From Golubevia sp. BC0850 (taxonomy: Eukaryota > Basidiomycota > Exobasidiomycetes > Golubeviales > Golubeviaceae), in contig JAAVVG010000015.1 of the NCBI GenBank assembly GCA_012976225.1, positions 372,001 to 436,000 of the forward strand: a stretch of DNA of 64,000 nucleotides. The letters are read 5' to 3'. Of this stretch, positions 3,225-43,727 are shown piece after piece (the stretch's first letter is position 1; every line of letters begins with the position of its first letter). The translations under genes were made by a program, and so were the position numbers. The notes beneath the pieces are model-generated. The model did not search any database. It was not told where the DNA came from and was given only the letters and a program-made list of their open reading frames with translations.

Positions 3225-3436
3225 GAATTATTGATCTCTCCACTTTCTCCCCCTTATGTCATTTGTTCGTCCTAATTTAGTTTACCTCGACCCTTCTAAT
3301 CAAACAAACCTTTCTTGTCATTCTTCACACAGGCCTTTAAAAAGGAGTGTGAGAGGGAGGAGGTTTGCTCAGCCTGCTCGAGCAACTTGGTCTTTTTCGA
3401 CTCGACTAGATCGAATCATCTTGACTTGCTCTCCTC

Positions 3437-5426: not shown

Positions 5427-6685
5427 ATGACTTCCACCCACTCTGCAGCTCAACTCGTCAAGGTGAACTCCCCCTTACAGGACTTCCAAGTGCCAACGCG
5501 TATAACGGCTCCCACAAAAATCAAAATCGCAGTCTCGTACGTAGCTCTATCTCCTCTTGATGTTTGGAGATCTAGGTATGGTCTTTTGATTAAAGATGAA
5601 GATCTTCCGAAAACTTTGGGAGGAACCTTCTCAGGCAATATTCTTGAAATTGGAAAGCAAGTGCCTCAAGCTGAAGGTGAACTGAGATTGAAGACGGGCG
5701 ATTTAGTTAGTGGCTGGGCAGCTGGTCTTGGTGGCTCTATGGAGGAGATCATCGACGTTGAATGGTGGTGTGTAAGCAAAGTTAGTAGAAGAATTCCAGA
5801 CTGAAACCCTGGTGAGGTACTGAACTTTCGATTCTTTCTTCCAGCTTTCAAACAATTTGGATCTAGCCTCCGCCGCTACTTTAGGAGATAACCTTACTAC
5901 AGCTATTTGGTCTCTGTCTGAAGGTGGTTTATCTCTATCACTCTCGTGTTTGGAAGCTTCTGAACCAGCTTCGAAGGAAGAAAACATCCTCGTGTGGGGA
6001 GGTTCTTCTTCCGTGGGTCAATTCTCGATTCAGATCTTGAAAGATTCTGGTTACAAGAACGTCTATTCTACTGCTTCTTCCAAACACCATCAACTTTTGG
6101 TAGAGTTAGGGGCAAAGAGAGTCTTTGATTATAATAACCAGGAGAATTGCCTCTCGGAGATGCTGGAAGAGATGACTCCCAAAGGTTTAGACGGGTTCAC
6201 AAAAGTTCTGGATTGCATCGGTGATGTAGATGGAAGTTTGCGAAAGATCAAAAAGGTAGTCAGTAAGAATCAGCCCTCCGTAGTTGCGGCTATGCTTCCA
6301 TATATCGAGAAAGGTAAAGAGGTTTACATGTCAATCGAAGAAACGTGAGCTACACAATCGCGTAGACCTCAAAGTGCGATGAGTTTTCTTTGAGCTGACA
6401 TTTATTTTCTCTTTTCTCTTTCCACTTGAAAGTGGTTTGCAATTTCCCTCTACCTCTGCAGTGGTAGGAGTGAGAACTCACTTCTATTGGCACTCGGACT
6501 TTAACAAGAACAACATCCAACCTAGAATCATACCGAATCTGATTGCAAAAGGTGTGGTCAAGCCTAATAAGGTCAAGCTGGTGGGAAATCTCAGGACTCA
6601 GAGTCTCGCTGAAAGATTTCAAGAGGGATTGAGAAGTTTGGAAGAAGGAGTCAGTGGAGAACGTGTCGTCGTTCAAGTTCAATGA
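5427..6685 (+). CDS. Zinc-type/quinone oxidoreductase (MDR family)
   Basis: Predicted 365 residues from exons 5427-5771, 5845-6344 and 6433-6685. It is a medium-chain dehydrogenase/reductase: an N-terminal GroES-like half (KIAVSYVALSPLDVWRSRYG, LGGTFSGNILEIGKQV, LKTGDLVSGW) and a Rossmann half with the nucleotide loop VWGGSSSVGQFSIQILK near residue 165, then VLDCIGDVDG. The full set of catalytic zinc ligands of alcohol dehydrogenases is not apparent, so it belongs with the zinc-independent enoyl-reductase/quinone-reductase-like (ToxD-like) members that use NADPH. The natural substrate cannot be read from sequence. The length is typical of the family. The start is the first ATG of the frame that precedes the GroES fold; an upstream in-frame codon exists but is not ATG. 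Confidence 0.85.
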
Positions 6686-19080: not shown

Positions 19081-22000
19081 ATGTCTTTGACAGACGAAAA
19101 AAATAGCAAGACACCTTCTGCTTATGAACAAGATGTTGAAGTTAATCCTTTAGAACCAGGCTCTGGACAATTGAATGGAACAGGAACTGAATTCGATCAT
19201 GTTTCTGATCTTCATAGGAATCTTAAACCAAGGTGAGTTATTCGACTCAGACAGATGTAGAACGTAGTTGAAATATTCACTCACTCGAACCTTTCCCTCT
19301 GCGTCTTTCGCTGAACTTCTCTCCTCTCACAAAAAGACATCTGATCTTCATCAGTATTGGTGCTTGTATTGGAACTGGTATCTTTTTGGGGTTCGTATCA
19401 TTAGACTGTCTTCAGCTTCTATTTCTTTACGACTTGCGACTGACTTGCATCGCGTTTCTCCTGCGACCGTCCTGACTTTCTTTTCTCAAATCCTTACCAG
19501 AGTGGGTAACTCTCTCAAGAATGGAGGTAAGTGTACTTAGATATGCCATCTGAAGATCTGAATGCGAACTCACATTCAAACTAGGATAAGATGAAGCTTC
19601 ACACAGAGACTGACCACTCACTCTCTCCTTTCCTTCGACTTTCAAACAGGTCCTCTTGGTCTATTCCTCGGATACACTACTGTCGCTACAGTGATGTTAT
19701 CAGTCATGCTTTGTGTAGGAGAGTGAGTGACTTTCTAGGAGCAGGATGCCCTTGTCCTCTCTATGGGCCTTGGCTGATCTTCCTCCCTCTCTCTCTCTCT
19801 CTCTCTGTTCTTCACTTCTTCAGAATGTGTTGTTTACTTCCAGTCAGTGGAGGTCACATTCGTTTATCAGGTCGTTTCGTAGATCCAGCTCTTAGGTGAG
19901 TCTGTAGAAGGATAATCCTTGAGAACAGACGGAAGATCCTTACGACATCATCTCACCCCCTTTTTCGTCTGACTCGCCTGGCGATCTATCAAGTGTCGTC
20001 ATGTCTTACAACTACTGGTGAGTCATCGGAAACTAGTCCTTCTGTGTTATCATTTAGCCAGCCAACAGCAAGTCGTGGCTAAGCTCTGACATCTTCTTCC
20101 CTCACTCTCCTTCGCCTTCTCTCTCAAAGGTTATGTTGGAGTCTGATCCTTGCAGCTGAAGTCAGTATAATTTTCGCACCAGCCAGTACGAACCGAATCA
20201 GAATTAGATGATTAAATCTCAGCTACCCCAAAACTAACTCTGTCTCGCGACCATTCTGTTTTCTCACCTTCCTCTTTTCTTGAACAGATCTCAGCTTCCT
20301 CTGTCCTCATCTCTTATTGGGATCCTGATACTAATGCTGCCGTATACATGGTTCCGTGTGCCCTTGGTGAGTCGAAGGGAGAAGAAGGAAGATTTGTAGA
20401 CACTATCTCTTTGACTCAGTGTTTCTAGAAGTAGATATATCTAATCCAAAAGAGGACTACCCTTGGACCGTTTTTAGGAGGGTTCAAACAAACACGTCCG
20501 ATTCGATCAGGTCAGATTATTCGATCTCTACTAATTCTTTCTCATTCTGTCTTCTCTTCCAAACAGGAATCCTCGCTCTGAACGCCTTCCCAAGTGGTGT
20601 CTATGGAGAAGGAGAGTTCTGGTTCGCATCTATTAAAGTGGTTCTATTGACTGGTTTGTGAGTAAATCTACTTGTTGAAAGAGTCGAGCCAGTCAGATCT
20701 TTGACCACTGATCCGCCCCTTCTTTCTCCCTCCGTCGTCGCTTCTTCTCTCCAGGATCATCATTTCCATCATTATTAGTGCTGGAGGAGGTCCTGCTCAG
20801 ACTAGTGCAATCGGGTTTTCTTATTGGGACTCTCCAACTGGGCCATTCCAACAATATTTAGGTAAGGATCCCGTTCCTTTGAGGGAAGAGATGGAAGGAG
20901 GACGCACTTGACCACTGACCCCCCTTCTCTTCTCTCCCCACCGCCGCTTCTTCTCACTTAGATATCGGAGGTGCCAAAGGACAATTTCTAGGTTTCTTCG
21001 CGGTTCTCACTCAAGCTTCCTTCTCTCTGATCGGAGCTGAAATGTTAGCTCTAGCTGCTGCTGAAACTAAAAACCCAAGGAAGGTCCTACCAGTCGCCCT
21101 CAAGACTGTCTGGATTCGTGTCGGATTCTTCTACATTGCCTCTACGTTTTGTATTGGTATTTCAGTTCCTTCCAATGATGAAAGACTTGGAGCGTCTTCT
21201 ACAGCTGCTGCTTCTCCCTTCGTTATCGCCATCACTGATGCTGTGAGTACGAGTGTTTGATGGCCACCAAAGTTGAATTCGACGCTGAGCAACTACTCAC
21301 GATTTTTGTTATCACTTTGTTTCTTTTACTTTCACAGGGAAGTGAGTTCCATCTGCCTCTTCCGTTTGTGGTCACCCCTTTCGGGCTGCTGACATCTCTA
21401 CTGTCTTGAATCTCTCCCCCTCTTTCAAGTCAAAACGCTTCCTTCGATCATCAACGCCGGTATCTTAACTTCAGCTCTATCAGCAGGATGCTCTGACCTT
21501 TACACTACATCGCGTACCATGTATTCCATGGCTCAAAAGGGTTACTGTCCCAGAATCTTCGCTCGGACGAACAGGCACGGAGTTCCTTATTACGCCGTAT
21601 TCGTATCTTGGCTTGTTGGTCTATTGGCTTTCCTCGGTGCTGGTTCAGGTTCCGGAAACGTTTGTGAGTTGAAGAAGTTCTTAAGAGGGATTCGTCGACA
21701 TTCGATGAATCTGATCGCTGACACTTTCTACTGCTCTCTTTCTACTTATTTCAATCCTCTCTTTTCACTTATCCCAAATCCCCATAGTCAACTTCCTAGT
21801 CAACCTTACCGCTCTCTCTGGAATCTTGACCTGGTTGGCCATCGCCATCACTCACATGCGCTTCAGAGCTGGAATGAAAGCTCAAGGCTTGTCTCGAGAC
21901 ATGTTACCTTGGAGATCCTCTTTAGCTCAAGCTGGAAGTTACTGGATTTTCTTCATGGTCTCAATCATTACCATCTTCTCAGGATGGACTGCTTTCCATG

Positions 22001-22319
22001 ATGGATTCGATCCAAACGCCTTCTTTTCTAATTACCTTCCAATCTTCTGGTGAGAGTTACATTGAAAGAGCACCCTTCTGATTTTCATTCGTATAGCATT
22101 GTTCTGATTAAAGGCGCTCTTCTTCCTTCATCATACAGGTTCGTCTGTGGATACTTCATCGCCAAGTTTGTCTTCAAGACCAAGATCGTTCCTTTACAAG
22201 AGATGGACTTCGTTTCTGGTCTCAAAGAAATTGAAGCTGAAGCAGCTATTTGGGATCAGGAAGATCGGGACAACGCCCCAACTACTTGGTATGGAAAGTT
22301 GTTCGTTAACTTCTATTAG
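19081..22319 (+). CDS. Amino-acid permease, yeast amino-acid transporter family
   Basis: Predicted 556 residues from 15 exons: 19081-19232, 19337-19390, 19501-19526, 19650-19722, 19824-19895, 19994-20017, 20130-20160, 20288-20366, 20567-20657, 20755-20861, 20962-21242, 21338-21341, 21430-21663, 21788-22049 and 22139-22319. It is a plasma-membrane proton symporter of the APC/YAT family: ISIGACIGTGIFLG after a 50-residue polar N-terminus, PVSGGHIRLSGRFVDPAL, YNYWLCWSLILAAE, then FLGFFAVLTQASFSLIGAEM and LPSIINAGILTSALSAG. Twelve helices are expected. The motif PVSGGHIRLSGRFVDP is typical of broad or acidic amino-acid permeases rather than of basic ones; the exact substrate is not readable. Exon 12 is only four bases (GGAA) and is needed to keep frame and to give Ala-Gly-Ile before KTLPS. 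It is heavily intron-split compared with neighbours. Confidence 0.93.
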
Positions 22320-32546: not shown

Positions 32547-35401
32547 ATGTCCTCCTTGGATGAAGTCAAGTCAGCCATTCAAATCCAAGGTGTAGGTGTA
32601 CCCGATGATTCTAATTCTAATTCTAATCAAGTGCCAGCTCACCAACCTCAGCTAGATCAATCTGAATCAACCAGAAATAATACAACTACTTCACCTTCAT
32701 CTTCCCAGCCTCAACCTTCATCCTCCAGTCATTCAGCTTCTTCCCCTTCCTTATCACCATCAACTTCCAGAACCATACTTCTTCTATCCAAACTCAGCAG
32801 TTCAACCTCAAGAGCAAGCTTAGAATCTTTATCTTTTGGTTATCGAGATCATCTACTACCACTAAGTCTCAGTGGAGGAGCTGACGATGACGAGAGCTTT
32901 GAAGCTGGTTATGGTGAAATGGAAGGTAGTTTGAGGGAACCTGCTGGTGCTAGCAGTAGGAGCAGGAGGAGGAATAGATCTAGAAGCAGAGATAATGAGA
33001 AGAGAGTTGGTCTGGTTGATGGTGAGTACACGAACGTGCTTTGGCGAGAGACTAGAGAGAGGTAGCTCGAGGAAGAAAGGGAGAGAGAGAGGGGGTCACA
33101 GCAACCGTCTTGCTCTTGTGATGATGGGTATATGCTCATTGACCTCTGCTTACTCTTGGTTTCGCTCTCAGGAATCGCCTTGACTGTTGGTCTTCAGATA
33201 GTGAGTGTCTTGCAGCGATCGAGCTTGGGATATGAATCTGTTGTTCTCCAGCCAGCTCCAAGTGCTGATATCTTCTGCTTCCTATCTTCCTCTTCAAATC
33301 TACCTTACATTTACCAAGGGAAGTGGAATCTTTTCTTCTCCAGGAGTAGTCACTTTAAACACTGGATCGGTGGGAGCCAGCCTACTGGTTTGGATCGTGT
33401 CTGGAATCTTAGCTTGGACTGGCGCTAGCTCTTTTGCTGAGCTGGGAGCTGCTATTCCTTTGAACGGAGGAGCTCAGGCTTACTTGAACGTCAGTATATA
33501 TCGTCTTTGAAAGCAAGATGGGTGGAGGTTGAGGTCTTTCTGTCTAGCATCGAGCTTACTCGATAAGATTCTACCTTCTTCTTCACCAACAGTACTCCTT
33601 CGGCCCTCTAAGTGCTTACCTCTTCGCTTGGACTGCCATTGTCGCTTTGAAGGTAAGGCGAGGCGAACTCCATCCTTAGTCTCCTGCGATTCTCACTTGT
33701 GCCATCTCACCCTTTCCGTTCTTCCCTCTTCCACCTTCTCCAGCCAGGATCAGGCGCCATCATAGCCACCATTTTCGGAGAATACGTAGCTCGAGTAGTC
33801 TTCCACGCAACTTCATCTTCAACAGATTCAAAACCTCATGAACAAGGATTAGAAGGAATCCCCTCTTGGTCAATCAAATTAATAGCCTGTTCAATAACTG
33901 TCCTGGTTTGTCTACTAAATGCAATCTCCTCAAAGTTAGGTACTAGAACTCAAGTCTTAACCACAATTATAAAACTTCTAGCTTTAATAGCAGTTCCAAT
34001 CCTAGCCATCATCCAAGCTGCAAGAGGTAAAATTCCAACTTCTTCAAAATTAGCTTTTTCATCTTTTAGCAATCTTTTTGAAGGATCTTCCACTTCACCT
34101 TCTTCTTATGCTTTAGCTCTTTATTCAGGTCTTTGGGCTTTTGATGGTTGGGATCAATCTTCCTTCGTAGCTGGGGAAATGAAAAACGTCAATAGAGATC
34201 TTCCTCGAGTCATTCATTCTTCTCTTTCTATAGTCTTGGTGGTTTTCTTAGCTACTGTTACCAGCTATTTTGTGGTTTTACCTGCGGAGTTGGTTCAGAG
34301 AACTAACACCGTGGCGTTGGATTTTGGAAGTGCTACGATGGGCACTGTTGGTGGGGTGGTCTTTGCTGGATTGGTGGCTTTCAGTTGGTGAGTTGGAGAG
34401 AGGCCAGGTAGAGACTCAAAAGCGCAAAAGCTCATCCCTTTTGCCTTGAATCTTTGGAATAGCTTTGGTGCTTTGAATGGTCAGGTGAGTTGATTCGACT
34501 TTGGCTTCTCATCCTCACCTCTTGAAATTCTGAATTTCTTGAAACTTCTTATCCCTGGCGCTCTTTTCAGTTCTATACGACAGCTCGACTGGTGCTGGCA
34601 GCCGGAAAGGAAGGCTATCTACCCTCGATGTTTGGGAGAACAAACTCAAGAACCGATACTCCTTTAGCTGCTATCATTCTTCAAGGTCTATTAGTGATTC
34701 TGTTCATTCTATTCGCTGAAGGCTTTCAGAGTCTTGTGAACTTCTACGCTGTCTGTGCTGTGAGTGACGTCGAAACTTCATCTCGCTTCGTTCCCTGACT
34801 GACCCACCCTTCCTCTTCGATTCTCCAGTGGCTATTTTACTTCTCAACTGTGCTAGGCCTACTAGTCCTGAGGATCAAGGAGCCAAATCTTGAGAGACCT
34901 TACAAGGTGAGACCACAGATGAAAGCAGAAAGGTGTCGTCAATTTCTGACTCCTCTTCTTTATTTCCCCCAACAGACCTGGCTAGTCACTCCAATTCTCT
35001 TTTCGGCAGTGGCTCTCTTCCTTCTATTCATGCCTATCTTTGCATCTCCAACTGAAGCTCTAGCAGCTCTTGGTTTCGTGACGCTCGGTGTACCAGCTTA
35101 CTATCTGACGCAAGGAGTCGGTCGATTACCTTCACTCCTACAGAAATGGAGGGGTGGAAGTAGAGCTGAAAGGGATGACGGTCTAAGAAGTGGAATGGAA
35201 GATGAAGAAGGCGAAGAAGAAGTCGAAATGTTGATGAGAAAAAGTGAAGATGCCGCTGGTAGAGAAAGTGAAGAGGATGATAGGGGCAGGGGAAACAACG
35301 GAAAGAATAAGATAGATCAGGAGGAATATGATGAAGATCAGGAGTTCAAGATCGGAGAAGAAGATGATGACGAAGATGAAAGCTCAAAAGGGAAGATTTA
35401 G
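32547..35401 (+). CDS. Methionine-permease/LAT-like amino-acid transporter
   Basis: Predicted 697 residues from exons 32547-33021, 33172-33200 (29 nt), 33319-33489, 33593-33652, 33744-34387, 34463-34484 (22 nt), 34571-34759, 34829-34906 and 34976-35401. A disordered 155-residue Ser/Arg-rich N-terminus precedes the APC core: GIALTVGLQIGSGIFSSPG (helix 1 with the unwound G-S-G-I-F), ASSFAELGAAIPLNGGAQAY, ALALYSGLWAFDGWDQSSFV, CFGALNGQ, FYTTARLVLAAGKEGYLPSM and RIKEPNLERPYKTWLVTP. This is the Mup1/LAT branch of amino-acid transporters, found at the plasma membrane. The motif YSGLWAFDGWDQ is close to that of L-type transporters; methionine as substrate is only an inference. The C-terminal 90 residues are strongly acidic. 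No relation beyond the superfamily to the permease at 19081. Confidence 0.9.
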
Positions 35402-43086: not shown

Positions 43087-43727
43087 AACTGAAGGTTCAC
43101 CTTTCATCCTCTTCTTTTTCCTTCCACTCTCTCAAAGCACCTTTTCTTCTTCAAGAGCCCACTCTTCCGACTCAAGATCACGAACACAGGAAGACGTCTC
43201 GAAGGTTGCAAATCCCTCACACACAATCTAGTAAATGATACCTAGTACACGTTTGGCTTCTTTTTCTCTTTTTTTTAGCGTCTCGACTACTATCTAATCT
43301 CAAAGCAATGGTTCTTTCAATTTCACGTCTCCGAATGATATTTCACTTCCCATCCCTGTTCCTGCTCACCTGACCACCGCACTGTAGATTAATTTTTAGT
43401 CCTTCCATAACCCGCATCTCTTCTTGTATTTAGTTCTTTACTGTTATCTGATGTAATCCATGAGTGGTATTGAGTATGTTCTATTTCGAAAAGGTCCGGA
43501 GAGAAAAAGGATCGAGCCTGTCTTCTTCCCTCGAGGGAAGTGAGGTCACACCTCTTGAGTTGAGGCTAAAAGGAATGGTACGTAACCCCACGGATATCGA
43601 GGGCTGAACGATAGTTTGAAAGATGTTTCAAATGAACTGATCTTTCACTGTTTCACTTTAAACTTAAACTATCTTCCTTCCAGTTCCTCGTCCTCATCAA
43701 TCTTCTTCTTTACTACCGACACGAATC
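43087..43727. other. Intergenic, no gene seen
   Basis: 641 bases between 7TM-C and 7TM-D on the same strand. No gene seen. Confidence 0.45.

Follow-up and report, generated by a model that had tools for sequence, protein, structure and literature searches.

Exon 2 of the human MPC1 gene is described as a constitutive 4-bp microexon (PMC9929638). The text available on Fusarium CYP621A describes a single-nucleotide exon that is common to 20 orthologues and has RNA reads behind it (PMC12940212), and in the Arabidopsis APC11 gene a single-nucleotide exon is reported as proven by GFP constructs (PMC4674806). P450 microexons, the shortest being 6 bp, are reported from Phanerochaete chrysosporium (PMC1184071), and a plant survey gives more than 2,000 exons of 1 to 15 nt (PMC8831610). 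No exon as short as 4 nt is named in the accessible portions of PMC3990503 and PMC11121469. Judged by titles and the openings of abstracts, no paper having a microexon in an amino acid permease gene as its subject came up in the literature searches.

The window analyzed here (the whole 64,000-nt stretch of DNA) belongs to a genome of 25.8 Mb in 64 contigs, which from its size, its density of introns, and the kind of gene would be that of a fungus, probably a basidiomycete, and contains a permease gene in which the bases GGAA appear to form an internal exon (Table 1). We put the probability at about 0.92 that GGAA is a real, normally included 4-nt exon, the flanking introns of which would be removed by intron definition; this judgment draws on the anatomy of the sequence, the reading frame, the strength of the splice sites, and identity with paralogs, all of which the analysis shows. 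A sequence-only reading of the same DNA had proposed this exon, and the proposal was supported, the exon lying on the best-scoring path and its residues matching those of intronless paralogs. The permease exon is a further case of a known class of tiny exons, rare and readily overlooked by gene finders, in which shorter exons, fungal ones included, are already known. Since 1-nt exons have been published for plants and fungi (PMC4674806, PMC12940212), 4 nt is not the lower limit, and the accompanying suggestion that exons of this size are near that limit needs correction to this extent.

The permease exon resembles MPC1 exon 2 as described in its length of 4 bp, in not being a multiple of three, and in the dependence of the frame on its inclusion. 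In contrast, the MPC1 exon has long flanking introns and exon-definition elements (67 bp upstream, 6 bp downstream), whereas the permease introns are short (95 and 88 nt); furthermore, MPC1 inclusion was seen in sequenced RT-PCR products, and the permease exon is predicted here from DNA. CYP621A, as reported, is likewise fungal, was likewise argued from the frame and an intronless relative, and has a tiny exon that likewise contributes to a Gly codon within a conserved motif; it differs in an exon of 1 nt, against 4 nt here, and in its 20 orthologues and RNA reads, against DNA from one genome. The reported APC11 exon is constitutive, as the permease exon would be, and shares with it the need for inclusion to maintain the frame and the existence of intronless relatives (rice in the case of APC11), but measures 1 nt rather than 4 nt and was proven by GFP constructs. 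The P450 genes of P. chrysosporium are described as fungal genes with microexons amid many small exons and short introns, but their minimum is 6 bp and they belong to another gene family.

Table 1. Predicted features of the permease gene around the candidate microexon and the competing single intron (positions in the window)
Feature	Position	Strand	Length	Description
Amino acid permease gene	19081-22319	+		15 coding exons, 14 introns, 556 aa; hand-curated chain
Exon 11	20962-21242	+	281 nt	ends ...ITDA, phase 0, last codon GCT
Intron 11	21243-21337	+	95 nt	GTGAGT...TTTCACAG
Microexon 12 (candidate)	21338-21341	+	4 nt	GGAA, Gly codon and first base of Ile
Intron 12	21342-21429	+	88 nt	GTGAGT...TTTCAAG
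Exon 13	21430-21663	+	234 nt	first bases TC of Ile codon, phase 1
Single intron (rival)	21247-21429	+	183 nt	donor GTACGA, frame kept

Translation of the curated 15-exon chain gave 556 aa with zero stops. Residues 52 to 513 of the protein matched positions 1 to 465 of the 470-position profile PF00324 with 404.5 bits, above the curated cut-off of 24.6 bits, and residues 46 to 520 matched a lysine-specific permease (PDB 9eyd; E, 5.3e-79). The product is a predicted APC-type amino acid permease. Further small exons of the gene measured 24, 26, and 31 nt. Intron 2 had an unusual donor, GTTCGT (positions 19391 to 19396), although GTGAGT donors abound in the rest of the gene.

The coordinates, the four bases, their CACAG and GTGAGT flanks, and the two intron lengths given in the sequence-only reading were all exact. 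Ranked against 353 predicted introns, the donor of intron 11 scored 8.9 bits (42nd percentile) and its acceptor 12.4 bits (88th percentile); in intron 12, the corresponding values were 11.6 bits (82nd) and 10.6 bits (66th). The 4-nt internal segment between these GT-AG introns was thus bordered by an acceptor at the 88th and a donor at the 82nd percentile. CTGAC was the strongest motif 15 to 60 nt before intron ends (observed in 50 of the 168 confident introns; expected, 5.2), and in intron 12 it started 41 nt before the intron end. The branch-point-like motifs of intron 11, CTCAC from 42 nt and CTGAG from 53 nt before its end, were weaker variants, which counts against the microexon.

When GGAA was included, the junction read ITDAGIKTLPSIINA and encoded ITDA-GIK-TLPSIINA within an uninterrupted 556-aa permease. 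Joining of position 21242 to position 21430 without GGAA gave ITDASKRFLRSSTPVS, a frameshift, and a TAA stop at 21466, whereas retention of intron 11 or intron 12 led to a TGA stop at 21258 or 21407, respectively; both the frameshift on direct joining and the stop on retention had been anticipated from the sequence alone. The stronger assertion that only GGAA could continue the frame went too far: GGAA does restore it, but a scan of the region for single introns of the GT/GC-AG type, 40 nt or longer, with a donor at 21200 to 21399 and an acceptor before 21500, returned eight weaker alternatives that also keep the frame, so that "only" was wrong. Two of the eight left exon 13 whole, both using the acceptor that precedes position 21430: the donor at 21247 (GTACGA), which yields A-V-I-K and an unchanged protein length, and the donor at 21253 (GTGTTT), which adds two residues. 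Because the product of donor 21247 is equal in length, protein length cannot decide between it and the microexon.

Paralogous permease loci of the same genome served as the comparison set, the query used to retrieve them already including AGIK. Nine loci aligned and read through the site with no intron there, their residues being A-G-I-K, A-G-I-N, A-G-I-K, A-G-I-H, A-G-V-K, A-G-I-K, G-E-I-K, A-G-S-R, and A-G-T-K. Gly thus occupied the site in eight of these nine alignable loci and Val in none, and skipping of GGAA, the bases supplying this conserved residue, leads to the stop at 21466. The letters GGAA themselves were present in six of the nine, namely, in four of the seven alignable beyond the site and in both copies that look degenerate past it (A-G-S-R and A-G-T-K). 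The expectation of Ala-Gly-Ile-Lys as in related permeases was therefore matched by the intronless paralogs at both the protein and the DNA level. LysP (9eyd) has A-G-F at the site, with no gap, and the Gly form outscored the Val form by 2.7 bits against PF00324 and by 2.3 bits against PF13520. Four places from the family search that were unmatched by the permease protein query lie outside the count of nine: L002 (C11, 58 kb), positions 33873 to 34307 of the window, C15 at 242 kb, and C7 at 597 kb; blastp aligned neither L002 nor the window segment at the site. In the permease-like copies L007/L019 (G000:C55:611 kb) and L020 (G000:C11:1714 kb), the alignment was lost after Ala-Gly, both being possible degenerate relatives of the C55:547 kb copy.

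Splice sites were scored with a self-trained gene model comprising a three-periodic coding model, donor and acceptor matrices, and intron lengths. The training sample consisted of the 64-kb window and twenty 10-kb stretches (264 kb in total); introns 11 and 12 were held out of splice-site and length training, and the coding part was trained with the permease gene included. After five rounds, the model contained 70 genes and 353 introns with a median length of 109 nt, and the donor GTGAGT was used in 180 of these 353, GTACGA and GTGTTT in none. The best path through the permease gene contained the 4-nt exon even though the flanking introns had been held out, and 27 of 28 internal boundaries agreed with the curated ones, a single one being misplaced (19355 for 19337). 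The microexon path scored 17.3 bits, and the paths through donors 21247 and 21253 scored -7.9 and -8.0 bits, respectively; the advantage of 25 bits over the best alternative is to be read with the caution due to a home-made, self-trained model. When the matrix was built from just the 12 other curated introns of the permease gene, with lengths kept flat and the coding term left out, the microexon scored 3.2 bits and donor 21247 scored -5.1 bits, a margin of 8 bits. The sign of the preference is stable and its size depends on the model (25 versus 8 bits).

Chance agreement was examined in several controls. Of 20,000 dinucleotide shuffles that left the initial 8 and final 20 bases of the stretch in place, with microexon lengths of 1, 4, and so on up to 58 nt allowed, none held a frame-restoring microexon scoring as high as the observed one. 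Some frame-restoring AG...GT pair (1 to 58 nt) was present in 17,867 of the 20,000, so the mere existence of one is uninformative. Another 88 predicted introns, each 150 nt or longer, were searched for pseudo-microexons of 1 to 30 nt with equally high site scores, and none held one; this control is partly circular, those stretches having been classed as introns by the same model. The pattern YAG-NNNN-GTGAGT was found five times in the window against 0.87 expected; since the occurrence at 19716 marks where an ordinary exon ends, this excess need not mean microexons. Genome-wide, a strict acceptor followed by 4 nt and GTGAGT, a pattern that misses the GGAA site itself, showed no excess (8 versus 7 in the backward control), nor did the pattern with 8-nt spacing (9 versus 10). 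Without an excess of the 4-nt pattern over its backward control, the motif by itself proves nothing.

Of the 289 internal exons of the model, 14 were at most 10 nt and 49 at most 30 nt, and many of the shortest are probably false. The 20 internal exons of at most 12 nt included GGAA, and only GGAA and one in L037 had both sites above 9 bits; the remainder were not accepted as real. The L037 candidate is an 8-nt exon on the plus strand (3298 to 3305; AAGAACTT) with strong sites, an acceptor of 11.6 bits and a donor of 9.8 bits; the predicted gene that contains it encodes 1,464 aa and scores high. In the window, the model placed an 8-nt exon, TGGTAGGA, at 6462 to 6469 (plus strand), between introns of 117 and 82 nt, with an acceptor of 9.9 bits and a donor of 6.8 bits; it lies near the end of a predicted quinone-oxidoreductase-like frame, which is broken by skipping, and among the matches listed, structure-database alignments stop short of the site and give no homology support for the exon. 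A second 4-nt exon proposed by the model, at 43536 to 43539 of the window (plus strand), also reads GGAA, with an acceptor of 9.9 bits, a donor of 8.7 bits, and introns of 225 and 144 nt; it belongs to a low-scoring predicted gene and may be false.

Other structures of the region were also considered. RNA folding across the microexon stretch was not unusual (z, -0.21; 77 of 200 shuffles folded as well), and a stabilizing structure there was rejected. A stwintron (spliceosomal twin intron) is described as one intron interrupting the splice signal of another; this arrangement was rejected, introns 11 and 12 each having a complete donor and acceptor with four coding bases between them. Membership of the two introns in a mobile family was likewise rejected: they did not match each other at an E value of 10, searches of the 264-kb sample at an E value of 0.01 returned self-matches only, and the 321-nt region matched nothing in the genome other than itself.

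The most direct competitor of the microexon is a single 183-nt intron, by which exon 11 would gain the four bases GTGA, the protein would read A-V-I-K, and GGAA would be intronic. Such an intron preserves the frame and the protein length and changes one residue at a Pfam cost of merely 2 to 3 bits; its length is also admissible, 67 of the 353 predicted introns being at least 180 nt. Its donor, however, scored -0.2 bits (3.4th percentile), with a hexamer that none of the 353 introns uses, its path was the worse one under both the 353-intron and the 12-intron model, Val stood at the site in 0 of 9 alignable paralogs, and the strong acceptor and donor placed exactly around the GGAA of the paralogs would be left unexplained. 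We therefore regard this single intron as very unlikely to be the main structure. The donors at 21243 and 21247 form a tandem, GTGAGTAC (21243 to 21250), in which the second GT follows after four bases and tandem use shifts the junction by exactly the length of the microexon; donor 21247 could thus also provide a minor in-frame isoform. Given two in-frame routes of equal length, the 4-nt exon with AGIK and the tandem donor GTGAGTAC with AVIK, one might even imagine the microexon as a switch or fail-safe in which skipping is compensated by the 4-nt donor shift, an idea that we consider extremely doubtful.

A pseudogene or a misassembly, with a 187-nt intron at 21243 to 21429 joining out of frame or with four bases lost, would account for the out-of-frame direct join and for the good quality of both outer splice sites. 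The other 14 exons are nevertheless open and encode a full-length permease domain, and the exact four missing bases are present in the stretch between strong splice sites, so that this possibility is close to negligible. Regulation of the microexon is compatible with its normal inclusion: skipping by a 21242-21430 join would give an early-stop transcript and might lower permease levels in some conditions. The length of 4 nt, not a multiple of three, and the position of the stop at 21466 with two introns downstream fit such a role, and nonsense-mediated decay after mis-splicing of such microexons in human genes is discussed in the MPC1 report (PMC9929638). The strong splice sites rather fit constitutive inclusion, however, and the 4-bp exon of MPC1 is itself described as constitutive (PMC9929638); regulated skipping seems unlikely on balance.

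From this anatomy we infer inclusion of the 4-nt exon in the mRNA, intron definition, an order of splicing, and the fate of skipped transcripts. Introns 11 and 12 have the appearance of two ordinary short GT-AG introns, each with a donor, a branch-point-like motif, and a pyrimidine-rich acceptor, and they would be recognized through intron definition and excised in succession. In general, binding of U1 and of the factors for the 3' splice site on the two sides of 4 nt is mutually exclusive. The two sites bordering GGAA lie too near each other for joint occupancy, so one intron would probably be removed first, upon which GGAA would be joined to a normal exon before the second step. As skipping causes a frameshift and the stop at 21466, inclusion would have to be the productive form unless the shifted donor is used. 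The paralogs, in which GCN-GGA-ATH is unbroken, indicate that two insertions, or a double loss in the paralogs, would explain the structure; insertion of two introns, separated by 4 nt, into an unbroken GCT-GGA-ATC coding sequence is the preferred account, and loss of both in the intronless paralogs may equally fit the data.

The permease gene is dense in introns, and its introns are short, conditions under which intron definition should ease the splicing of tiny exons. Gene finders that impose a minimum exon length would cut the permease short or misplace a splice site at this position. Confirmation of the 4-nt exon by transcripts would add to the view that the apparent minimum size of fungal exons is set by annotation rather than by splicing.
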